Shown here in pieces: positions 1 through 20,900 of a DNA stretch of 32,027 nucleotides. The notes under the pieces were generated by a model, which was not told where the DNA came from, searched no databases, and saw nothing but the letters and a program-made list of their open reading frames with translations. A program made the translations under genes and the position numbers. The stretch lies in NCBI GenBank assembly GCA_030590505.1, contig JAUUYH010000006.1:1-32027 (forward strand). The letters are read 5' to 3'. Within the stretch, counting starts at the first letter, position 1; every line of letters starts with the position of its first letter. Source of the stretch: Kiritimatiellota bacterium (lineage in GTDB: Bacteria; Verrucomicrobiota; Lentisphaeria; Victivallales; JAADHT01).

Positions 1-136
1 CCCCCTGAAGACGAGATTTCCCAGACCGTTAAGGTCTCTAAAGGCTGGTTGAAGACTACAACCTTGATAGGCTGGAGCTGTAAGTACAGTAATGTATTCA
101 GGTTACCAGTACTAATAAGCCGTGCGACTTAACTAC
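1..136 (+). rRNA. rrl: 23S ribosomal RNA, 3' end (partial)
   Basis: The first ~135 bases match the conserved 3' end of bacterial 23S rRNA, including the GGTACTAATAAGCCGTGCG region and the terminal CTTAAC strand that pairs with the 5' end of the molecule. The 5' part lies outside the window. The 3' end is placed within a few bases by analogy with E. coli. It is followed on the same strand by 5S rRNA, the usual operon order. Confidence 0.95.
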
Positions 137-266
137 CTTTTTTTTCAAATTTGCGAATTTCGCAAATCTGAAAGGAAGGCGAGAATACCGTACATTGTGT
201 ATTCTGTTAGCCCTAATCTTCTTTTTTAATATTATAAGCCCTGATTTTCAGGACTTAATCGGTTTT
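137..266 (+). other. 23S-5S spacer with inverted repeats
   Basis: No tRNA is present in this spacer. It holds an inverted repeat at about 143-173 (core ATTTGCGA / TCGCAAAT, flanked by TTTCA / TGAAA), a second at 183-204 (GAATAC / GTATTC) and a third just before 5S (AAGCCCTGA / TCAGGACTT, one mismatch). These are plausible sites for RNase processing of the rRNA precursor. That role is inferred from position only. Confidence 0.5.
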
Positions 267-382
267 ACCCGGTGCGTATAGCGAAGTTGTCACACCCGTT
301 CCCTTCTCGAACACGGACGTTAAGGACTTCTGCGGCGATGGTACTACATTTTAGAGTGTGGGAGAGTAGCACGGTGCCGGGT
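267..382 (+). rRNA. rrf: 5S ribosomal RNA
   Basis: The ends ACCCGGTGC and GTGCCGGGT pair completely (with two G-U pairs) to form helix I, which sets the boundaries. Inside are the conserved CACACCCGTTCC and TCTCGAACACGG segments of loops B and C and the GGGAGAGTAG segment near the 3' end. Length of about 116 nt is normal for bacterial 5S. It lies ~130 bp after 23S and just before a strong terminator. Confidence 0.96.
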
Positions 383-1258: not shown

Positions 1259-3268
1259 CTATGCTTTTATTTTCTTTCTGCATAAGAATTCTCTGCGAAT
1301 CCATGGGAATATTGAAATAAGGATAATTACTTCTGGAATAATCAATACTCGTTCCATTGCTCTTACATGCCACCATAACGGCATAACTGAAAACATGAAT
1401 GCAAACAATAGCAAAAAAGCACTTAAAACTCCGACCATCACTCCAATATACAAACTTTTCGGCTTCCTTATAGAGCGCTTCCTATAAATGACAAGCAAAA
1501 CTATATAAACGGCCAAGATAGAGACAATAATTCCAAGTCCTCTAATATTATAGAATGTTGTTTCAGTGAATACCTGTAGTATTTTTCCTGATTTTTTCAC
1601 CCATGCCTCGGAAAAGAAAGCAGGCATTCCCGTTATTGAAAAGTCTATTGACGCAGTTCTGAAAATGAATTTAGACATAAATAACGGAAGTAATCCTAGA
1701 ACTCCTGCAACTGTTGTAAAGAAAATAAATCTATATTTGTCTGATGAAATCGCAATTTTAATCTCTTTCCAGGATATCAAAAAAAGTGCGAATGCCATTG
1801 TTAAGGAATAAATCAGACCTTCTGTTTTCCACCAGCAACTCATGCTGAACATAAACATGGATAATATTAGAAAAGATTGTTTTTTCTCTGAATCAACAGC
1901 ATCCAGAAAACATTTAACGCAGTAAAAGCCTGTGAGGGTCTGACATATCAATAACGTTTCAGCATACATCGTGAATGTAATCATAAACCAAATCGTACTG
2001 GAAACAATCAGAGATGCAAGTAATACGGAAACCATACTTTTTCTTTCTGTGCCATAATTAAATAATTTAAGAAGCAGTATATAAGATATCGCACTCCAGA
2101 AAATGGGAACAAGTTTAATCAACCAATCGTCAATTCCTCCTGCAACTGACCAGCACCATGCAAGCATTATTGGATATCCTAACGGGTATTCAGGGTGTAT
2201 ATATATTGTTTCTGGATTTGTATAAAGATTCCCGATCTCTCCAGTTATGCAAAGTATTTTTGCTTTGAAAGCCCAGACCGCAACGCCAGGCCAGCTGGCA
2301 ACGGCCATACTCATGCCGTCAATAATCATCATTATGAAAAAGATAAGAAAGGATCCTGTGGCTATTATTATATAAAATCTATTTTTTTTAAAATTATTGA
2401 TAGATCGTTTGATTAACAGATTAAAATATTTATAAAATAAACTGTAATTTAATCCCTCGGTTACCTTATGGTCTGGACCTGTATTCTTTCTGATTGTCAA
2501 TATTAAACAGATAAAAGACGATAAAATAAGATAGACTGAGATAAAAAGCACGGGGTTCATTTTAAATCCGATTATTAGCAGAAAAAAAGTTATAAATGAC
2601 AAGAGAAAATGCCCAGCAAGAAGAGATGCTGTGAAATATATAAAACTATTGATTTTTAAATTCGGCAATAGGACTTTAAGAGTCCCTGCTCCTGGAAACA
2701 GAGGCAAAAGAAGAGCACATATAATTAAAAACAGTCCAAACATAACGTAGGATAAACTTTTTTTATTTGGAGTAGATGAAACTTTACCGTCAGATTTCAC
2801 ATTTTTACGTGTAAATAGTGTATATTCCTCTTTTGTTTCATTTTTGATAAAGTTATCTGCTTCTCCTTGCTGTTGCAAAAAATATTTGGCATTTAATAAA
2901 GTTTCAATAAGAAGATAATCACACTTTTTAAGATCTGTGTCGTATATAGAATGAACAGGTAGCGGGTAGTAACGATAATTAATCATTCCGAAAGTTGCAA
3001 TATCAATAACAGACGAGGGGGTTGGAGTTTTTGTGAATTTTACAAATAACCCTCTACTTCCTTCTATCCGATCGTCCAGTAATGATGTTATATCCAGTCG
3101 TTGTTTATAAAGTCTGTCATTAAAAACTTTGCCGTCAGTATGATTTTGAACAGCCCACTTTGTTCTGAAAATAATCCCCTGATAATCATAATAAAAGTGG
3201 ATCCCGATAAAGATAAGCAGCACAAGAACAAAACAAACTCTGAAGAATTTTAATAGGCTTAGTTTCAT
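1259..3268 (-). CDS. Multi-pass membrane protein, GT-C glycosyltransferase-like
   Basis: 669 residues. A membrane segment at residues ~5-27 is followed by a ~140-residue non-membrane stretch, then about ten hydrophobic segments from ~172 to the end. Residues 317-366 carry an Asp, then W-x-x-KAK, then HPEYPLGYP (358-366). This arrangement recalls the first extracytoplasmic loop of GT-C enzymes such as PMT/GT39, which transfer sugars from lipid-linked donors on the outer face of the membrane. Family placement is by motif only, and donor and acceptor are unknown. The ATG is preceded by a purine-rich AGAAGAAG, a weak ribosome binding site. It stands alone, converging on the rRNA operon. Alternative: a membrane protein of unknown function with a similar topology. 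Confidence 0.72.
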   Translation of the reverse strand: MKLSLLKFFRVCFVLVLLIFIGIHFYYDYQGIIFRTKWAVQNHTDGKVFNDRLYKQRLDITSLLDDRIEGSRGLFVKFTKTPTPSSVIDIATFGMINYRYYPLPVHSIYDTDLKKCDYLLIETLLNAKYFLQQQGEADNFIKNETKEEYTLFTRKNVKSDGKVSSTPNKKSLSYVMFGLFLIICALLLPLFPGAGTLKVLLPNLKINSFIYFTASLLAGHFLLSFITFFLLIIGFKMNPVLFISVYLILSSFICLILTIRKNTGPDHKVTEGLNYSLFYKYFNLLIKRSINNFKKNRFYIIIATGSFLIFFIMMIIDGMSMAVASWPGVAVWAFKAKILCITGEIGNLYTNPETIYIHPEYPLGYPIMLAWCWSVAGGIDDWLIKLVPIFWSAISYILLLKLFNYGTERKSMVSVLLASLIVSSTIWFMITFTMYAETLLICQTLTGFYCVKCFLDAVDSEKKQSFLILSMFMFSMSCWWKTEGLIYSLTMAFALFLISWKEIKIAISSDKYRFIFFTTVAGVLGLLPLFMSKFIFRTASIDFSITGMPAFFSEAWVKKSGKILQVFTETTFYNIRGLGIIVSILAVYIVLLVIYRKRSIRKPKSLYIGVMVGVLSAFLLLFAFMFSVMPLWWHVRAMERVLIIPEVIILISIFPWIRREFLCRKKIKA

Positions 3269-3665: not shown

Positions 3666-4853
3666 TTAATATTGTTTTTCCTCTTCATGATTTTTAGAAG
3701 CCTTTGTGCTGTTTTTAATACTGAAGAGCCATGGGATTAAATCAGGTTCGGCATAAGCCCAGAGCCAGGCAGCATGGCGGTTTCCTTTTACTTTTTTACG
3801 GTTTCCTTTTGCATCCGTTCGATATTTTATATATTCAGTATATTTCGCTTCCCCTCCACAATTAGCAAATTTAACCAACATCTTTGCTCCACCTTTACGT
3901 GCTTTCATTTTTTCATTTGGATTGTTAAACGCCCAGACAGAATGTTTTTTTATTTTATCGGTAATCATAGGCACCATTTCGTCATATCCGCATGCGACGG
4001 GAAATGCCGCGGCAAAAAAATCAGGAAACTTGAGAAGAGATTCCCAGGCAGCAAAACCACCAGAAGAGAGCCCGGTTACGTAAATACGTTTCTCATCTAT
4101 TCCTGGAAATTCTCTAAGCATTTTTTTTATAATACCTATAACCGGCAGTAGATTCATACTTACGCAACCTTCATTCATATTGCACCAGCTACTACCGTTT
4201 AAAACTTTGCCATTAAGCTGTGGAGCAAGAAAAAAACAGGGATATTTTTTTTGATTTTTAGGATCAATAAAGGTGAAAATTTGCGGATGTTTGGCCAGTT
4301 TGTATTCATCCCCTTTTCCATGAAGAAAAACAACAAGCGGCACCTTTTTATCTTTTTTTATATTCTTTTTATCAGGAACAAAATAAAAATATTCCATTAT
4401 CGGGATTTTGCTTGCAACATAATACGGATCGACTTTCCAGAGCTTATTGCTGCCAGCGAGTTTTGTAAGTTCGCTACCGATATTTTTATACTCATCACGC
4501 TTCAATAAATCAACCATAGGGACAAGTTTTTCTTTGAATTCGTTCAGATTGAAATCATTGGGTAAGCGGCTTTTTACAGGAATGGCCTTCCCGTAAATAT
4601 GAAGTGGCGGCAAGCGTCTTTCTGCTTCCTCCTCAGATAACTGAGAGCGCTTTAAAAGAACTTTTTGCCCATCTGTAAGAATCACCTGTAACTCGTTTTT
4701 TCCACTTCTCCGAAGCACAGAAAATGTCAGTTCCCCCCCGTTTTTTAATTTCAACGGGGCTGCAAAACCCGCAGATATGCTTAGAAGGAGGATCAAGCAT
4801 AAGGGGAATTTGATTCTGCTTCTTTGCCTGAATATTAACTTTGTACATCTCAT
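3666..4853 (-). CDS. Secreted alpha/beta-hydrolase (esterase/peptidase-like) with N-terminal SHD1-like domain
   Basis: 395 residues. A signal peptide (residues 1-31, cleavage near GFA-A) leads into a short beta domain (~33-80, with DGQKVLLKRSQLSEEEAE) resembling the SHD1-like modules common in Planctomycetes and relatives. The hydrolase domain (~165-378) has the oxyanion motif FLHGKG (176-181), nucleophile elbow GLSSGG with Ser263, and C-terminal His360 in NRHAAWLWAY, the pattern of PHB-depolymerase or predicted-peptidase type enzymes. The usual F-H-G-x-x-D acid strand reads F-N-N-P-N-E (309-314), so the acid may be Glu314 or lie elsewhere. The start overlaps the stop of the gene before it as ATGA and has no Shine-Dalgarno, so it is probably translated by coupling. 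It is the last gene of its unit. Substrate unknown. Confidence 0.8.
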   Translation of the reverse strand: MRCTKLIFRQRSRIKFPLCLILLLSISAGFAAPLKLKNGGELTFSVLRRSGKNELQVILTDGQKVLLKRSQLSEEEAERRLPPLHIYGKAIPVKSRLPNDFNLNEFKEKLVPMVDLLKRDEYKNIGSELTKLAGSNKLWKVDPYYVASKIPIMEYFYFVPDKKNIKKDKKVPLVVFLHGKGDEYKLAKHPQIFTFIDPKNQKKYPCFFLAPQLNGKVLNGSSWCNMNEGCVSMNLLPVIGIIKKMLREFPGIDEKRIYVTGLSSGGFAAWESLLKFPDFFAAAFPVACGYDEMVPMITDKIKKHSVWAFNNPNEKMKARKGGAKMLVKFANCGGEAKYTEYIKYRTDAKGNRKKVKGNRHAAWLWAYAEPDLIPWLFSIKNSTKASKNHEEEKQY

Positions 4854-5605
4854 TCTTTTGTTTTAATAACTCTTTTTATCGTGATTGTGTTTAGAACTGT
4901 CTGCGTAGGTGCTTTGCTAGAAAAATCAAGTTGAATTTTTTGCGGGGTCAATTTCCCTGAAACAAGTTTTAATTTTCCTTCCATCGCGTTATCCTGAAAA
5001 AACTGCATCTGTTCATTTCCCATCATCTTTCCGAGATTTTTTTTCTCAGAGCTAATAAGGGTAAAGGTATCATTCGTTGATTTTTTGATTTCTATTTTCT
5101 TAAATGTTGCCATCATTTGCAATTTTTTTATGGAAGCAGGTTTTAGAATAAATGAATCTGAAATTTCAAATTCTTTTTCAGCGGGGATCAATGCTCCGAA
5201 AATGGCACACAACATCATTTTTGAACCTTCATTCAAATCACGTTTATTAATTGCGGGAACAATATCAACCTGCCCGTTCTTTTCGTTCAATAAAAATTCC
5301 CACTTATTGCTTTTGCCATCAAGAGTAGATTTACAGATGAATTTCCATTTTCTGCCCGAATCACTTTTTATCTTTTTGACAACTACCTTAATTGATATAT
5401 TAATCTCATGCTTTCCCTGTGACTTCATCATTTGTTGTTTTTGTTCTTTTGTAAGTTTCTGGAGCATCTTCATTGGAAAATTAGAATTAATCATGGTTTT
5501 TACATTCCCAGAATATTCTCCAGTGAGGTCAATTTCGCCACCAAGTAATGCGCTTGTTGACGCAACTACAATTATTACAAATAATGTATGCATTTTATTT
5601 TTCAT
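4850..5605 (-). CDS. Secreted protein of unknown function (251 aa), paralogue of next upstream gene
   Basis: A signal peptide (residues ~1-22, ending LLGG) is followed by IDLTGEYSG at the mature N-terminus. The rest is Lys-rich and predicted beta-rich, with no catalytic motif I recognise. It shares with the 241-aa product of the neighbouring gene the [IF]-x-L-x-G-x-YS start, an F-[GS]-[AS]-LIP-x-E motif in the middle, and an F-S-x-x-x-P/T then basic C-terminal strand, so the two look like distant paralogues. Its start overlaps the 3' end of that gene by 11 nt, with an AAGGAAAG ribosome binding site inside it, and it overlaps the hydrolase gene by 4 nt. Function unknown; tight coupling suggests the three act together outside the cytoplasm. 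Confidence 0.78.
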   Translation of the reverse strand: MKNKMHTLFVIIVVASTSALLGGEIDLTGEYSGNVKTMINSNFPMKMLQKLTKEQKQQMMKSQGKHEINISIKVVVKKIKSDSGRKWKFICKSTLDGKSNKWEFLLNEKNGQVDIVPAINKRDLNEGSKMMLCAIFGALIPAEKEFEISDSFILKPASIKKLQMMATFKKIEIKKSTNDTFTLISSEKKNLGKMMGNEQMQFFQDNAMEGKLKLVSGKLTPQKIQLDFSSKAPTQTVLNTITIKRVIKTKE

Positions 5606-6320
5606 GTTTGGCTTTCCTTGTTAATATTAATGAATAGCAACCTTTTAAATATTTGTGTAACTTTGTTGTTGGGCTAAAAAAGGTAACCGTAACTTTAGAT
5701 AATGAATACTGCGAGAGGTTTTTCTCTTTAACATAAAGGATCTTTTTCTCTATTTTTGCTACAAAACGATTAGATTTCTTTTCCCCAACCTTAATGCCAC
5801 GTTCTAATCGACCATATCCTGAAAAAAGAAATTTATTGCTATCTCCTGTAATAGAATATTCTTCTGCAAAAGTAAAGGAATCTTTGACCATTAGAAGTTC
5901 AGTTTTAGATTCTGCACCATTTTGTTTTTTTAGTATTATTTTAACATTTTCATTTGGAATTAAACTAGAAAAAAGAAGTTCCTTAATAAGAAAATATTGC
6001 TTCTCAAAATTGTCGCTGCCCTTTTCCTTTTTTATGTATATTTTATCAAGATGCAAAAAATGTGTTCTTTTATTGAATTCAAATGTTATAATAGTATTTT
6101 TTTTATCTTGTATCTTAACATGCAATGTCCCCGTGTCTTTAGGTATAATCTCCATTTTATATTTGGAAGTTAATACATCAACAGACTCTTTGTCTTTTTT
6201 TTCTGACATAACAATCGAATAATGTCCAACAAGATTAAATTCGTCTGCATTTAAGTTTAGGCTGAAAAGCAATGAATAAAATAAATAAATAATTAATAAT
6301 AGTGATTGTAGGATATTCAT
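5595..6320 (-). CDS. Secreted protein of unknown function (241 aa)
   Basis: The N-terminus is strongly hydrophobic (residues ~4-24) and ends ...NLNA-DEF, a likely signal peptide. Mature protein starts FNLVGHYSI and includes LLFSSLIPNE, both shared with the 251-aa product downstream. Very rich in Lys, Ile and Phe; no known domain recognised. Its ATG lies two bases after the stop of a 52-codon ORF and has no Shine-Dalgarno of its own, so translation probably depends on ribosomes finishing that ORF. It is transcribed from the promoter at 6575-6604. Confidence 0.75.
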   Translation of the reverse strand: MNILQSLLLIIYLFYSLLFSLNLNADEFNLVGHYSIVMSEKKDKESVDVLTSKYKMEIIPKDTGTLHVKIQDKKNTIITFEFNKRTHFLHLDKIYIKKEKGSDNFEKQYFLIKELLFSSLIPNENVKIILKKQNGAESKTELLMVKDSFTFAEEYSITGDSNKFLFSGYGRLERGIKVGEKKSNRFVAKIEKKILYVKEKNLSQYSLSKVTVTFFSPTTKLHKYLKGCYSLILTRKAKHEK

Positions 6321-6322
6321 TG

Positions 6323-6481
6323 TTATTTTACGATTGTAAATAGTGCATGAAAAGTAGTGTCAGGCGTTGCGACATATCCTTGAGCCTTGGCTACAGCTAA
6401 GCTAGCATCTGCACCAGTTGCCATGATGCAAAGCATCACCATAATCGAAATCATAAAGATTTCCCAAAATTTCGTTTTCAT
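6323..6481 (-). CDS. 52-residue ORF with signal peptide; leader ORF or truncated gene
   Basis: ATG at 6479-6481 is preceded by GGAGGGTAAGGA, the best ribosome binding site of the unit. The product starts MKTKFWEIFMISIMVMLCIM, then AT, and goes on ~30 residues to TIVK and stop. The first 22 residues equal those of the 121-aa product at 8155-8520, and the DNA differs by one synonymous base there. After that the two diverge. It may be a coupled leader peptide for the 241-aa gene two bases downstream, a very small secreted protein, or what is left of a gene whose body was lost. Too short to decide from sequence alone. Confidence 0.6.
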   Translation of the reverse strand: MKTKFWEIFMISIMVMLCIMATGADASLAVAKAQGYVATPDTTFHALFTIVK

Positions 6482-6648
6482 TCCTTACCCTCCATAAACG
6501 GTTTTAATTTTTAAAGCATACTTTTAGAGTTTATAATTCTGCCTTTTAGTATTCTTCATAACACGAAAAATTGTAAAATACCCCCCCCCTTTTTTGATTG
6601 TCAAGTTGGTTTTTAAAGAAAATTCGTTTTTTGTTTGACATTGTATGG
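6417..6648 (-). repeat. Copy A of duplicated promoter / 5' UTR / signal-peptide cassette
   Basis: About 232 bp that aligns end to end with 8456-8686. Almost identical blocks are: the signal-peptide codons and ribosome binding site, a 5' UTR block of ~42 bp without a mismatch (~6485-6530), and the block around and upstream of the -35 box. The stretch between the -10 box and the UTR block is diverged. Sequences after the signal peptide are unrelated. Confidence 0.9.
6575..6604 (-). promoter_or_regulatory. Promoter of the 52-aa/241-aa/251-aa/hydrolase unit, with poly-G spacer
   Basis: On the - strand, TTGACA (6599-6604) and TATTTT (6575-6580) are separated by 18 bases, about nine of which are a run of G (C on the + strand, ~6581-6589). 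The same -35 and a matching -10 occur in copy B without the run. A homopolymer here can change the spacer length by slippage. Confidence 0.7.
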
Positions 6649-6672
6649 TGTGTGAATTTTTCTCACGTTTTA

Positions 6673-7497
6673 TTAATTCAAAAACTTTTTGGATAAATAA
6701 GTGTTCATCTCTGAAGTGAAAGATGGGGATTGAATTACTTCAAGTTTTGACATTACATCTTTTTTATATTTATTTGGTATATTTATTTTATATTGAGTAA
6801 TGCAATTTTCCCACCATTGTCTAAATTTTTCTTGAAGAAGTAATGAGTGAATCGTATCTTTATTCATTTTAGATGTTGTACCTTGATTTTTAGACTCAAG
6901 GAGCTTATTCTTTTCTTCTGTTTCTTTTTCTGTGATTTGGAAATTGGATTTTAATTTATTAAGCAAAACCCATTTGTATAAATCCATTTTAAATGAACTA
7001 AACGTTTTGCTCAGCATATCCTCCTTTGATTTAGGGGCAAGCATTTCATATTCTGCTATTTTATGTTTAGAATTATATTTTTTTAGTAATGACTTCCACT
7101 CTGTTTCGGAAACTTTTCCTTTTAGTATTTCATTATAAATCAAATCTGAATTATCATTATCAATGTAAACTTTTTTCAGAGCTTTTAGGCGTAAATCTAT
7201 TGATTGTATCAGTTGCGCTGCAATTTCAGAATTAAAGCCAAGATCTTTGAAATAAAACTCCATTATACTCTTGATCTCTTTATCTTTAATTGTGATATTA
7301 TTTTTTAACAGCTCTGCCTGTAATATTTCATTTTTCAAGGTTCTGGCACATTTCATAATAGTAGTTTTATAAGAATTATTCTGAAGGATAATCTTCAAAT
7401 CCTTGTCATTGAATTCCATGATGATATTTGCTGCTTTTAAATGAATGCCAGAAATCATAATTAGCATAATCATACTATTGATATATTTATTTTTCAT
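6673..7497 (-). CDS. Secreted protein with possible SurA-like N-terminal fold
   Basis: 274 residues. A signal peptide (~1-23, ...HLKA-AN) is followed by a helical, Lys/Glu-rich protein. Residues ~45-90 (KNEILQAELLKNNITIKDKEI...) and the C-terminal LLLQEKFRQWWENCITQYKINIPNKY recall the N- and C-terminal parts of SurA/PpiC-type periplasmic chaperones, in which a peptidyl-prolyl isomerase domain usually sits between. No such domain is evident. The start overlaps the preceding frame's end by 11 nt. A remnant of a second copy of its 3' end lies at 8669-8757. The chaperone assignment is a low-confidence guess from helix pattern and motif layout. Confidence 0.6.
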   Translation of the reverse strand: MKNKYINSMIMLIMISGIHLKAANIIMEFNDKDLKIILQNNSYKTTIMKCARTLKNEILQAELLKNNITIKDKEIKSIMEFYFKDLGFNSEIAAQLIQSIDLRLKALKKVYIDNDNSDLIYNEILKGKVSETEWKSLLKKYNSKHKIAEYEMLAPKSKEDMLSKTFSSFKMDLYKWVLLNKLKSNFQITEKETEEKNKLLESKNQGTTSKMNKDTIHSLLLQEKFRQWWENCITQYKINIPNKYKKDVMSKLEVIQSPSFTSEMNTYLSKKFLN

Positions 7498-8161
7498 AGT
7501 TACTTATCCTCTTTAAGAATCTATTTACTATTTTCAAAGACCCTATAAGAACTTCATGAACGTTTTGAGTTTTATTATAGATTGAAGTACAGTGAGCAAT
7601 TCCATCCACTGTTTTTTTGTCAATCCACTTATTATAAGACAATTTTCTCTGTGGAGTTGATGGATCATGGGAACTTGCATATTTCATTTGTTTTTCATTT
7701 TCTTCAAAAGAATATTTGTGATTTTCAACCCAAATAACGATATCCCCTGAATGGTGGCGATGAAATTTCAACCAAGCCGAAGATGCACCTAAGAACAATG
7801 TTTTTCCAATGTTTTTGATTGAATAAACAACATTGTAATTATAAAATTCTGTTGCACCGTGAGTGTAAGCAAAAATACCACCGCCTTCATACTTTCCATA
7901 TCCAAATAATTTTCCTCTAGTTGTTGATATGATTTTAGAGACGGTAGTTTTTATATTTACGCTCCCTCCATAATCTAACGTAAGTTTTATATTTGTCTTC
8001 GTATTTTTGTTTAATCTAAGTTCATCTTGATCAAAGGTAAAAAAGAATTTCCCTGATACTAATTTAGTTTGTTTTTTATTGAAAATGGCTTGTGCAGAAA
8101 AAGCCTTTGGTTCAAGTAAGTAATTAACTTTTGTTGCACTTGGAGTTGTCGCATCTACCAA
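7487..8161 (-). CDS. C-terminal part of a probably frame-split secreted protein (224 codons)
   Basis: The open frame runs from a TTG at 8161 with no ribosome binding site, no signal peptide and no in-frame ATG for well over 100 codons. It overlaps the stop of the 121-aa frame by 7 nt. One extra T in the TTTTT run at ~8162-8166 would join the two into one ~345-residue secreted protein. Content: beta-rich N-terminal half (GKFFFTFDQDELRLN..., GYGKYEGGGIF), then FLGASSAWLKFHRHHSGDIVIWVENHKYSF and a basic C-terminus. No family recognised. It could be a real separate gene made by reinitiation, but the lack of a start signal argues against that. Confidence 0.6.
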   Translation of the reverse strand: MVDATTPSATKVNYLLEPKAFSAQAIFNKKQTKLVSGKFFFTFDQDELRLNKNTKTNIKLTLDYGGSVNIKTTVSKIISTTRGKLFGYGKYEGGGIFAYTHGATEFYNYNVVYSIKNIGKTLFLGASSAWLKFHRHHSGDIVIWVENHKYSFEENEKQMKYASSHDPSTPQRKLSYNKWIDKKTVDGIAHCTSIYNKTQNVHEVLIGSLKIVNRFLKRISNYEK

Positions 8162-8520
8162 AAAGCGGTTGTTCTTGCAGCTACAAATGTTTTAGCTTTA
8201 TCTGGGGGTTCACTGATGCTACCGTCTTTGTACTTGTATGTAGGAGTTACTTTTACTATTGTCGGTTTTTTAAATGTTACTGTTGCTTTAACAGACACCC
8301 CATATCCAGTTCCAGGTCTTTCGGGTGATACCGTTGCGACTGAACTTTTCACATCAATATTCAGTTCAGTGATTTTAGCATTTGGAGGACAGTCAAAAGT
8401 CGCACTTGCAGTTTGTTTTTTAGTGAAATCGATTACACTACCTGCTGCCCTCGCAGTTGCCATGATGCAAAGCATCACCATAATCGAAATCATAAAGATT
8501 TCCCAAAATTTCGTCTTCAT
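8155..8520 (-). CDS. N-terminal part of a probably frame-split secreted protein (121 aa)
   Basis: ATG at 8518-8520 follows GGAGGGAAAGGA. The signal peptide is MKTKFWEIFMISIMVMLCIM-ATARA, cleaved near ARA-AG. The mature part (SVIDFTKKQTASATFDC...VSVKATVTFKKPTIVKVTPTYKYKDG) has the alternating pattern of an Ig-like or other beta-sandwich domain. The frame ends ...TTAFW-stop in the middle of a Thr/Ala-rich stretch that continues naturally (VDATTPSATKVNY) in the -1 frame. It is first in a unit with 7487-8161 and 6673-7497. Function unknown. Confidence 0.7.
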   Translation of the reverse strand: MKTKFWEIFMISIMVMLCIMATARAAGSVIDFTKKQTASATFDCPPNAKITELNIDVKSSVATVSPERPGTGYGVSVKATVTFKKPTIVKVTPTYKYKDGSISEPPDKAKTFVAARTTAFW

Positions 8521-8686
8521 TCCTTTCCCTCCATAAACGGTTTTAATTTTTAAAGCATACTTTTAGAGTCTATAAGTCTGCTTAGTAGTATTCTTTATAA
8601 TAATAAAAAAAATAAATTACCCATCTCTCTCTGATTGTCAAGTAGGTTTTTAAAGAAAATTCGTTTTTTATTTGAAATTGTATGGG
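8456..8686 (-). repeat. Copy B of duplicated promoter / 5' UTR / signal-peptide cassette
   Basis: Counterpart of 6417-6648. The signal-peptide codons differ at a single base and the UTR block before the ribosome binding site is the same. The promoter spacer here is a GA-rich mixed sequence, not a homopolymer. The repeat is in the same orientation as copy A, with 1.8 kb of unique sequence between them. Confidence 0.9.
8614..8641 (-). promoter_or_regulatory. Promoter of the 121-aa/224-codon/274-aa unit
   Basis: On the - strand, TTGACA (8636-8641) and TAATTT (8614-8619) with a 16-base spacer. Position and flanks match the copy A promoter. An A/T-rich block upstream of the -35 is conserved in both copies and could serve as an UP element. 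Confidence 0.62.
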
Positions 8687-8757
8687 ATTCGGATTACTTC
8701 AAGTTTTGATAGTTCCGCTGCATTCACTGCATAACTTTTTTTGTAATGTAAATTGCT
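8669..8757 (-). pseudogene. 3' remnant of a second copy of the 274-aa secreted-protein gene
   Basis: Read on the - strand, this stretch gives ...HYKKSYAVNAAELSKLEVIRIPYNFK-stop. The 274-aa product contains NKYKKDVMSKLEVIQSPSF at the same place relative to its downstream cassette. DNA identity is clearest over ATTACTTCAAGTTTTGA on the + strand (8694-8710 versus ~6734-6750). No start or upstream coding sequence remains, as glnN's terminator lies immediately upstream. Confidence 0.6.
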
Positions 8758-8758
8758 C

Positions 8759-8788
8759 AAAAAAAAGCGGACAACATTGTCCGCTTTT
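8759..8788 (-). terminator. Intrinsic terminator of glnN
   Basis: On the - strand, AAAAGCGGACA / TGTCCGCTTTT with a four-base loop followed by a run of about eight T. It starts ~30 bp after the glnN stop codon. Confidence 0.93.
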
Positions 8789-8820: not shown

Positions 8821-10962
8821 TTAGTAGATAAAGAGCATCTCTGCATATTTTGGCAATGGCCAGAGTGTATCATCTACTTCTTTTTCAAGGCCATCAACAG
8901 CTTTACGAAGTTTCTGCATTGAGGAAAGTATCATTTTTGTTGATTCCGCCTTTGTAGATTCTTCAAGAGCAATTGCAGAATTACAGAGTTCGGCAATAAG
9001 ATTACCTACAACTTCGAGAGTTGATTTTTGCTCTTTAATTCCTGCTTTTGCACCAACAGATTTCAGATTCATAATATTCTTAGAAATAAGTTGCTGTTGT
9101 TTAATTGCCACAGGCAGGATCATTGTTTTAGCTATATCCAGGGCAAGTTCTCCTTCAATCATAATTGTTGTCTCATAATTTTCCAGAAAAACTTCATATC
9201 TTGAATGAAGCTCTTTTTTGCTTAGTACTGCATACTTCTCAAAAAGCTTTTCTGCCTTCTTTGTCAGTATGGGTTTAAGGGCTTCTGGAGTTTTTATAAG
9301 GTTAGGCAGTCCGCGTTTTTCAGCCTCTTTTAGCCAATCTTCTGTATAGTTGTCTCCATTGAAGATAACTTTTTTGTGCTTTTTAACTATATTTTGAAGA
9401 ATGGATTGAAGAGTTTTATTAAATTCACTTTTCTTAACACCTTCAAGTTTTGTAGCAATTTCATCTAAAGCTTCAGCAACGATTGTATTAATTACAATGT
9501 TAGCTCCTGAGCATGATTGATTTGATCCAACGGCTCTGAATTCAAACTTATTGCCTGTAAATGCAAAAGGGCTTGTTCGGTTTCTGTCGGTTGCATCTCT
9601 CGGAAGTACTGGCAGAGTATCAACTCCAACGGCCATTTTACCGCCAGATTTTGCGGATTTAGCAGGTCCCTTTTCTAACTGATTAATTACATCTCCCAAC
9701 TGTTCACCAAGGAAAATTGAGATAATTGCGGGAGGTGCTTCATTCGCTCCAAGTCGGTGATCATTTCCAGCACTGGCACATGTTGATCTCATAAGGTCAG
9801 AATGTGTATCAACAGCTTTAATTACTGCACATAAGAATGTAAGAAAGAGTGCATTCTGATGTGGATTACTGCCTGGATCAAGTAGGTTTTTACCATCACA
9901 TGTTGCAATTGACCAGTTGTTATGTTTGCCAGATCCATTTATACCAGCGAACGGTTTCTCGTGCATAAGGCATGCCAATCCATGTTTGTCTGCAACGGTT
10001 TTTAATATTTCCATTGTCAACATATTGTGATCAACACTTAGATTCAGCTCTTCAAACATAGGAGCGAGTTCGAACTGAGCAGGGGCAACTTCATTGTGCC
10101 TTGTTTTTGCCGGAATTCCGAGTTTCCAGAGTTCTTGATCCACATCAGACATAAAATTTAAAATGCGTGGTTTAATTGTCCCGAAATAGTGGTCATCAAG
10201 CTGTTGATGCTTGGGAGGAACATTTCCGAATAGGGTTCTTCCTGTCTGCATCAGATCTGGGCGAGCAAGGTAAATCTCTTTATCAATAAGAAAATATTCC
10301 TGTTCTGCTCCGAGAGTTGTTATTGCACGTCCTGATACATTTTCTCCGAAACATTTTAGTACACGTCTTGCTTGTTCTGATACAGCTTGCATTGAGCGGA
10401 GTAGCGGTGTTTTTTTATCAAGAGCCTCGCCTGTATATGAACAGAATGCTGTAGGAATACAAAGTGTAGCACTATTGTCATCTCTTTTTATAAATGCTGG
10501 ACTTGTAGGATCCCAAGCCGTATAGCCACGTGCTTCAAATGTTGCACGAATTCCTCCAGATGGAAAACTTGAAGCATCTGGTTCTCCTTGAATCAATGTC
10601 TTGCCTGAAAAGTTAAGAACAACACCACCCTCATGGTCTGGTTCAATAAATGAGTCGTGTTTTTCTGCAGTTGAACCTGTTAGTGGTTGGAACCAATGTG
10701 TATAATGACTGGCACCTTTGCTCAGGGCCCAACGTTTCATTGCATTTGCTACGTCATCTGCAATTCCAGCATCAAGAGTCGTTCCATTTTGAATTGTTGC
10801 GAGCAGTGCTTTGTATGTAGGTTTCGGTAGGTAATCTTTCATCGTTTTGATGTTAAATACATCCTGACCATAGATATCTGAGATACTCTCCGCACGTCGG
10901 CTTGCTGGAGGTTTAGCTCCTTTTGACGCTATACTTGCAATCGCTTTCTTCCTTAAATTCAT
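8821..10962 (-). CDS. glnN: Glutamine synthetase type III
   Basis: Makes glutamine from glutamate, ammonia and ATP in the cytoplasm. 713 residues, the usual size of GSIII (GSI is ~450). Family motifs in order: [40 protein letters not shown] (catalytic core), [21 protein letters not shown], and [23 protein letters not shown] near the end of the catalytic domain, followed by the GSIII-specific helical C-terminus. The ATG at 10960-10962 is chosen because GGAGAA sits five bases before it; an in-frame TTG one codon earlier is too close. Own terminator and probably own promoter; no PII or ammonium transporter gene nearby. Confidence 0.98.
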
Positions 10963-10993
10963 CAATTTCTCCTGTTTTTAATCTTTATAATAT

Positions 10994-17991: not shown

Positions 17992-20900
17992 TTATTCTTC
18001 GTCCTTTTCTACTTTTTTCTTTTCAGTTGAAGTATCTTCTTCAGTTACTTGAATTGCATTAGCTTCCTCTTCCTCATTCTCATCTCCTATAGATAGAGCC
18101 GCTTTTGCAGCTTCAAGCTTAGTAGGTGTGTCAACTCCTGTATCAGAAGAATCCTCATCCTCATCCTCATCCTCATCCTCATCCTCATCTCCCATAGATA
18201 GAGCCGCCTTTGCAGCTTCAAGCTTAGTAGGCTTGTCAGCTCCTGTGTCAGAAGAATCCTCATCCTCATCTCCTAAAGATAGAGCCGCTTTTGCAGCTTC
18301 AAAATTAGCAGTTTCATTTGCAGTAAGTACATCTGAATCTTCTTCAATAATTTCAGGTTCAGGCTCTATTTCAGTTCCCAGTTTCTTCATTTTGATCGCC
18401 TGCATCTCCGCAGTACCAGTTCCGGCAGGAATAAGGTGTCCTGTAATAACATTTTCCTTAAAACCTTTTAGATTATCAATTTTGCCGAGAGTTGCTGCAT
18501 CTGTGAGGATTCGTGTTGTATCCTGGAATGATGCTGAAGATATGAAACTTTCTGTTTCCAGGGATGCTTTGGTAATACCTAGAAGTACAGGTTCCGCTTC
18601 AGCGGGCTGTCCTCCCCTCATTGCCACATCTTGGTTCTCTTTAAGGAAATTCTGTTTATCAACCTGCTCTCCTGATAGAAACTTAGTGTCTCCAGCTTCA
18701 GTAACTCTGACCTTTTGAAGCATTTGACGAACAATGACTTCAATATGTTTATCATTGATTTCAACACCCTGGGCACGATATACCATCTGTACTTCGTTGA
18801 CCAAGTATGTTTGAAGTGCTTGTGGACCACACACTTCAAGAAGTTCATGTGGGACAACTGAGCCTTCAGTTAGTTTCTGACCTTTTCTGACTTTATCACC
18901 TTTACCAGCAGATAGATGCTTATTGATGGGAACTAAATGTTCTTCAATCTGATCATTTTCAGGGTCTCTGATGATTAACTGTCGTTTTCCTCTCGTTAAT
19001 TTTCCAAGTTCAACGATTCCATCGATTCTTGCGATTTCCGCAGCATCTTTAGGAATACGTGCTTCAAAGAGTTCTGCAACCCTTGGAAGTCCACCCGTGA
19101 TATCTTTATTTTTTGCAGTCTGTCTAGGCATTCTAGCAAGTACAACACCTGCTTTCACCTTAGCTTTCTCTTCAATCATAAGATATGCACTTGCAGGCAA
19201 GCTGTAGTGAGCGATTATTTCACCTTTTGCATCAAGGATTACAACCTGAGGATGAAGATCCTCACGGTGTTCCATAACTGTCATCTCTATGACACCGCCG
19301 CTCTTCTCTTCACGGTTAAGAGTAATACCTTCAATCAGGTCTTTAAACTCAATTGTTCCTGCCTCTTCTGCAATTATCGGAACGTTGTATGGATCCCAGC
19401 TTGCAATCTTTTCGTTGGCTTTTACTTTATCACCATCTTTCTTTGTGAAAATGGTACCAACTGGAAGTTCATAACGGTCAATCTCGTTTCCTTTCTTATC
19501 CGCAACGACAGCAACTCCAGTTTTATTTACAACTACTGTTTCATCTTTTTGATTCGTAATGGTACGTACATCTTCAAGAGAGACAAATCCGGCATTTCTT
19601 ACACGGATCATAGGTTGTTTGAATGATGATGATGCTGTTCCGCCAATATGGAATGTTCTCATTGTTAACTGTGTACCAGGTTCACCAATGGATTGAGCTG
19701 CAATAATGCCCAGAGCATCTCCAATTTCTGCAAGGTTGTCGCAGGCAAGGTTGCGTCCGTAGCATTTTATACAGATACCATGATCGGTTTCACATGTTAG
19801 TACGGAGCGGAGAAGAACTCTATTTATACCTCTGTCGAGGAATTTGTCAGCAATCTCTTCTGTTATCTCTTCATTAGCCGCAACGAGCATATCACCTTTC
19901 TTTCCTAAAGGATCCCTTACATCTGTACCACTGTATCTTCCGACAATACGATCTTTAATAGATATGATCTCTTCGTCACCTTCTACAATGTTGCTGATCC
20001 AGATACCTTTGACTGTACCACAATCTTCCTCTTTACAGATTAGATCCTGTGATACATCAACAAGTTTACGTGTCATATAGCCTGAATCCGCAGTTTTAAG
20101 AGCAGTATCGGCAAGACCTTTTCTGGCACCATGAGTACTAATAAAGTATTCGAGTACTGATAGTCCTTCACGGAAGTTTGAAAGAATAGGTCTTTCAATG
20201 ATATCTCCAGAAGGTTTAGCCATCAATCCACGCATCCCTGCAAGCTGTCTAATCTGGTCACGACTTCCTCGTGCTCCTGAATCAAGCATTGCATAGACTG
20301 GATTTATTGAATTAGCTCCAGTTTTATCAAGGACCTTGAACAGGTCATTTGCTACATGGTTACTTGTCTGAGTCCAGATGTCAATGATTTTATTATGACG
20401 TTCACCCTCAGTTACAACACCTTTTGCAAACTGCTGCTGAACAATCTCAATCTCTTCTCTTGCTTGTTCAATATGTGCTGGTTTTTCCTTAGGAATAACC
20501 ATGTCTGAAATTGAGATTGAAAATCCTGCGAGAGTCGCATGTTTATACCCAAGTTCTTTGAGTTTATCAAGATGTACAACCGTTTTCTCGCGTCCAGCAA
20601 TTTTATATGAATCACTGACAAGCTGTCCAAGGCATTTTTTATCTGCTAATTTATTAAACATTCCTAAAGAGTCATCCCATATCTCATTAAAGATACAGCG
20701 ACCTGGAGTGGTAATGATATATTTAGGCTTTTTATCTCCCCACGGAGTATCTTTTCCTAAATCAGGATTAGGAATTTTAACAGCATCATGGATCTTAATT
20801 ACTTTTATATCAAGCAGAGAAAGAACTTCAAAATAGTCTTTACAAATGCGTGGTTTTTTTACATTAATAGGATTCAATGTTAGGTAATAGGAGCCCAATG

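Follow-up and report, generated by a model that had tools for sequence, protein, structure and literature searches.

Two adjacent operons of a Kiritimatiellota bacterium begin with nearly the same promoter, 5' UTR and signal peptide and continue into unrelated genes. The question raised by this locus is whether an expression-and-export cassette has been copied in front of different payloads, or whether a larger unit has been duplicated and reworked. The window (the whole 32,027-nt stretch of contig JAUUYH010000006.1 that was analyzed) carries both copies adjacent to one another in direct orientation, with all array genes on the minus strand (Table 1). A self-BLASTN of the window aligns 6415-6648 with 8454-8685 at 89.3% identity over 234 bp (E 2.8e-85), which bears out the alignment of 6417-6648 with 8456-8686 described in an earlier note on this DNA. 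The details given there also stand. The 22 signal-peptide codons common to both copies have one synonymous difference (AAA/AAG at K2), the unchanged part of the 5' UTR (put at about 42 bp) is a run of approximately 43 identical bases, and the coding sequences diverge after the signal peptide, with identity stopping at the cleavage region.

The repeat had been thought to end at 8686. A second collinear match (6726-6750 vs 8684-8709, 92%, E 0.003) extends it to 8709; the copy-1 side of this match corresponds to the 3' end of gene B. Copy 2 lacks 77 bp that separate the two blocks in copy 1 (6649-6725), and a CCAT-type microhomology was read by eye from the sequence at the copy-2 junction of this gap. 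The repeated piece is an operon junction, made up of the gene B 3' end, promoter, 5' UTR and signal peptide, and is not a bare promoter cassette. Since copy 2 keeps a scrap of a B-like gene beside the terminator of the glutamine synthetase gene, it was probably once inside an array. The earlier description of an expression-and-export module on different payloads holds in that a conserved module precedes unrelated genes, but the duplicated unit is larger and spans the junction. Copy 2 leads a payload gene, the frame-split gene A, whereas copy 1 leads a 52-codon stub. A mobile promoter or leader element, similar to an insertion sequence and placed before unrelated genes, would explain the sharp ends and the unrelated downstream genes. 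It is very improbable, because there are only two exact copies, both adjacent and in direct orientation, no transposase is found among the neighboring ORFs, and the module carries a piece of the upstream gene; this remnant of the B 3' end largely refutes an element of that kind.

Table 1. Features of the operon array and its junction modules (window coordinates)
Feature	Position	Strand	Description
Junction module, copy 2	8454..8709	-	Remnant of B 3' end (8684-8709), promoter, 5' UTR, gene A signal peptide (codons down to ~8454)
Junction module, copy 1	6415..6750	-	Gene B 3' end (6726-6750), 77 bp lacking in copy 2, promoter, 5' UTR, signal peptide of stub ORF
Promoter-like site, copy 2	8614..8641	-	TTGACA, 16-nt spacer with (AG)4, TAATTT; consensus match only
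Promoter-like site, copy 1	6575..6604	-	TTGACA, 18-nt spacer ending in G9 (6581-6589), TATTTT; consensus match
Gene A, first part	8155..8520	-	Signal peptide (ATARA cleavage-like) and start of mature protein; stops at -1 frame change in T5
Gene A, continuation	7487..8161	-	-1 frame, 224 aa, no family match
Gene B	6673..7497	-	274 aa, N-terminus resembling a signal peptide; mostly helical in a low-confidence model
Stub ORF of copy 1	6323..6481	-	52 aa, signal peptide and ~30 residues; stop 2 bp before D1
D1	5595..6320	-	Secreted, 241 aa; weak, sub-threshold resemblance to YidC periplasmic domain
D2	4850..5605	-	Secreted, 251 aa; no match outside the source genome in 20 relatives
H	3666..4853	-	Secreted alpha/beta hydrolase, GLSSG nucleophile motif; last gene of the array's downstream operon
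M	1259..3268	-	Multi-pass membrane protein downstream of H; relative at equivalent place on contig C120 and in genome G055
Terminator-like hairpin	8763..8788	+	Between the array and the glutamine synthetase gene (8821-10965)

Most genes of the window array were not assigned to a known family. Searches of A, B, D1 and D2 against Pfam, NCBIfam and PADLOC gave nothing above threshold, and in 40 relatives the best matches to gene B (E 6.6e-6) and to the continuation of gene A (E 7e-4) are not clear homologues. AlphaFold predictions for gene B and for A1, a gene of the C120 array described below, are poor (mean pLDDT 44.9 and 44.1). The reading frame of gene A shifts by -1 within a T5 run (8155-8161, at approximately 8157); the shift may be a mutation, an assembly error or a recoding site. 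Signal peptides were called by eye, and Rfam detected no RNA family in the 5' UTRs. Two copies followed by payloads homologous in protein structure would, according to the earlier note, be an ordinary tandem gene duplication; the downstream proteins appear unrelated, with no homology detectable at the sequence level. The order of secreted gene, helical gene and hydrolase recurs in spite of this. The array lies downstream of a 23S end and a 5S rRNA gene (window 1-382). The genome has two long glutamine synthetase genes (~714 aa, 77% identical), one in the window next to the array and the other at C15:8819-10954. An rpoC-like gene elsewhere in the window has a hexanucleotide repeat of 6.5 units in its acidic C-terminal tail (18151-18189).

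The hydrolase is the exception. Window H matches TIGR01840 with 41.2 bits (E 1.3e-10), short of the curated cut-off of 107.85, and is also below the curated cut-off of NF050058; an H profile matches the esterase 3doh with an E of 2.4e-37. By these profile matches H is an esterase-like alpha/beta hydrolase. It resembles the PHB-depolymerase-like esterases (TIGR01840, 3doh) but has an extra N-terminal domain. The assignment of this domain as SHD1-like was dropped, as Pfam does not report it. Proteins of the H type are rare, being found at E 1e-30 or better in 9 of 198 genomes of the class, and most of these match over the catalytic part only. The source genome has H paralogues on contigs C120, C192 and C117. 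A hexanucleotide repeat (GCCCAC, 5.2 units) lies just upstream of the H gene on C192 (6163-6193).

Many further copies of 6417-6648 would, according to the earlier note, have supported a cassette family. The repeat DNA has a copy number of two in the whole assembly (2.54 Mb, 263 contigs, 86% complete), and the 40 relatives gave only short matches at chance level. Taken alone, two DNA copies would favor a local duplication. The suggested wider cassette family nevertheless has a counterpart in the same genome, which carries four more leaders on C120 and one on C6. All seven leaders align and have a TTGA box at an equivalent place; the window pair forms the more diverged group among them. The leaders before the mature proteins of the window pair and of the C120 units share promoter, 5' UTR and signal peptide while the mature protein differs, and the payload has been lost in two of the seven (one each at the window and C120 arrays).

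The C120 array has four tandem A-B-H units, and the DNA of their four leaders is 76-92% identical. From 5' to 3' it reads leader and stub, B4, truncated H; A3, B3, truncated H; A2, B2, truncated H; A1, B1, full-length H; and then a membrane protein related to M of the window. The copies are in direct orientation. On C6 the same kind of leader, more diverged, precedes another A-B pair whose mature protein is not shared; a profile of A1, A3 and the A protein of a relative (G001) matches the C6 gene only over positions 2-30, which is the signal peptide. A dispersed intergenic repeat also connects the two contigs (C6, 2324-2398 and C120, 18099-18173; 88% over 75 bp). The arrays with repeated junctions are known from this one draft Lentisphaeria MAG, in which contigs C192, C117, C197 and C19 break off inside or close to H-like genes. 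Contig ends of this kind are what repeats cause and could speak for an assembly artefact; they also suggest further arrays that broke the assembly. An artefact is the least probable of the explanations considered here, since the window copies differ at approximately 11% of sites and by indels, each has distinct flanks, and the pattern recurs on another contig.

Comparison of the C120 units shows where conservation stops. Before the ATG, windowed identity between units 1 and 2 and between units 2 and 3 is generally 93-98%, with a minimum of 81-91% in one part of the spacer; it is approximately 80% over the first 15 codons and then 26-60%, which is chance level. Between units 1 and 3 the identity declines gradually after the signal peptide, in line with the 42% protein identity of A1 and A3, which are homologous to each other and to A of G001. 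A2, which lies between them, is hardly related beyond the leader (E 5e-6 to A1 over a stretch that includes the leader), and the A profile misses it at E 1e-4. One internal deletion is common to all three truncated H copies, whose pairwise identity is about 90-96%, although the neighboring payloads are unrelated (A2 vs A1/A3) or, within related B pairs, 24-33% identical. This deletion suggests that a derived, probably dead segment was duplicated together with the junction inside the array. Since the unit spans the junction, from the B 3' end through the deleted hydrolase remnant on C120 to the promoter, UTR and signal peptide, it points to tandem operon duplication combined with recombination or gene conversion.

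These patterns could result from ordinary tandem operon duplication and very fast divergence of the secreted genes, with the leader under purifying selection and neither payload exchange nor switching. The gradual fall in identity between A1 and A3 agrees with this, as does the fast evolution of A and B everywhere; in the relatives G055 and G001 both are barely recognizable, while H is recognizable. It is an improbable account of the whole, because the non-coding spacer and the deleted H remnants are approximately 90% identical beside a chance-level A2, and steady substitution cannot easily give both. The steady divergence of a single duplication is hard to sustain on these grounds, and the synonymous positions of the signal peptide are kept as well. 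For the window pair, selection alone could still have kept the leader.

Recombination is the simplest addition, either as replacement of payloads or as homogenization of junctions by gene conversion. If homogenization alone were at work, the leaders of old paralogous operons would evolve in concert and the payloads would be old, with no exchange of cassettes. This accounts for the same data, and conversion tracts would be expected to run only as far as the homology does, into the signal peptide and the B 3' end; the direction of transfer is not readable from one genome. It is rather unlikely, since a non-homologous A2 between A1 and A3, both homologous to A of G001, speaks for replacement of the unit-2 payload and fits three old payloads less well. 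The preferred reading, with a probability of roughly two in three, is a tandem array of secreted-protein operons (A-B-H, then M) that has conserved junctions, turns over its payloads by recombination and has candidate slippage sites in its promoters.

The operon type also occurs in two relatives. A-B-H occurs once in G001 (WFSE01000004, Lentisphaeria bacterium S016_21), the only locus found by a scan of genome contigs with H, and A-B-H-M occurs in G055, which belongs to another family of the class. The leaders of both are without a repeat tract, and the G001 contig ends approximately 100 bp upstream of A. In five loci read from relatives, none has the array beside a glutamine synthetase gene.

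The promoters of the arrays contain short repeats. C120 units 1 and 3 have TTGACA(TACA)5, unit 2 has (TACA)3 after TTGACA, and unit 4 has no tract; the C6 leader has (TATAA)5.8 behind the TTGA box. In 117 kb of the source genome, all four tetra- or pentanucleotide repeats of at least 4 units fall in array promoters, and repeats as long as those of C120 units 1 and 3 occur in 12 of 29,038 random windows. The tracts of the window, above all (AG)4, are individually less striking: 40-nt windows with a repeat as long as G9 make up 1.2% of the background, and those with one as long as (AG)4 approximately 4%. The G9 of copy 1 is the sole TTGAC-linked tract of at least 8 G in the genome assembly. A repeat enriched over background lies between the putative -35 and -10 boxes at C120 units 1-3, C6 and window copy 1, where the boxes are consensus matches only, and promoter-like sites in the window are no more frequent than in shuffled sequence. 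The three C120 tracts derive from one another by copying, which leaves approximately three independent cases. The spacer optimum of sigma-70 promoters is 17 nt, and the C120 spacings of 21 and 13 nt are far from it. That each of the three loci has a repeat in the putative -35/-10 interval suggests phase-variable promoters, and phase variation through promoter spacing is a plausible second layer on top of recombination.

The array would then work as follows. Each operon has A, a leader-bearing secreted protein; B, a secreted and mostly helical protein; and H, which is esterase-like and full-length only at the array end, before M. Unequal recombination between junction modules, or gene conversion between them, would lengthen and shorten the arrays. 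The promoter, UTR and signal peptide would thereby be kept similar, whereas the payloads would be exchanged, lost (leaving stubs) or diverge quickly. Slippage of the short repeats in the -35/-10 interval may alter promoter spacing and turn units on or off in single cells, and such switching could diversify the secreted or displayed products.

The Vlp family of Mycoplasma hyorhinis likewise has a conserved promoter and signal peptide before divergent surface proteins. The array resembles it in this and in the candidate spacer repeats, but Vlp proteins are single-gene lipoproteins from a different phylum, and the array consists of multi-gene operons with a hydrolase. Transcription of vlp, maa2 and vmm is turned on or off by indels between the -35 and -10 boxes (PMC2268961). 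The Vpma family of Mycoplasma agalactiae and the Vsp family of M. bovis also conserve the 5' UTR and signal-peptide region and vary in the mature parts, as in the array (PMC2268961). Their switching relies on site-specific inversion (by Xer1 in Vpma), which brings a gene to the one active promoter (PMC2268961). The array copies differ in being in direct orientation, each with its own promoter, and the inverted copies and site-specific recombinase of the Vpma, Vsa or Bacteroides type were not seen at the window, C120 or C6, where no recombinase was recognized among the ORFs. The T-tract of vpma was found not to cause switching (PMC2268961), which calls for caution in the reading of repeat tracts. 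As a functional class, with no claim of descent, the array may work like the mycoplasma Vlp, Vpma and Vsp families. A palindrome of 15 bp, TTGCGAAATTCGCAA, lies within the codons for KFAKFA in the C120 and C6 leaders and also occurs elsewhere in the genome. It was set aside as a recombination site; most genomic matches are unrelated coding or intergenic sequence. A near-perfect inverted repeat with this palindrome lies at window 143-173, and the palindrome is also present in a few intergenic places.

The best-known families that combine a conserved leader, variable payloads and slippery promoters belong to host-bound mycoplasmas and to other pathogens. In the partly covered literature on Lentisphaerae with phase variation or simple repeats, no paper on such arrays was found. 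A phase-variable, recombining repertoire of secreted or surface proteins in Lentisphaeria, with at least three loci, seven leaders, locus-specific slippery repeats and payload exchange at junctions, is a tentative proposal, somewhat short of an even chance. The junction module together with the promoter repeat provides a ready signature for finding more arrays. If the proposal is true, an operon-scale version of such families in Lentisphaeria would suggest bet-hedging of the surface or secretome in a little-studied phylum.
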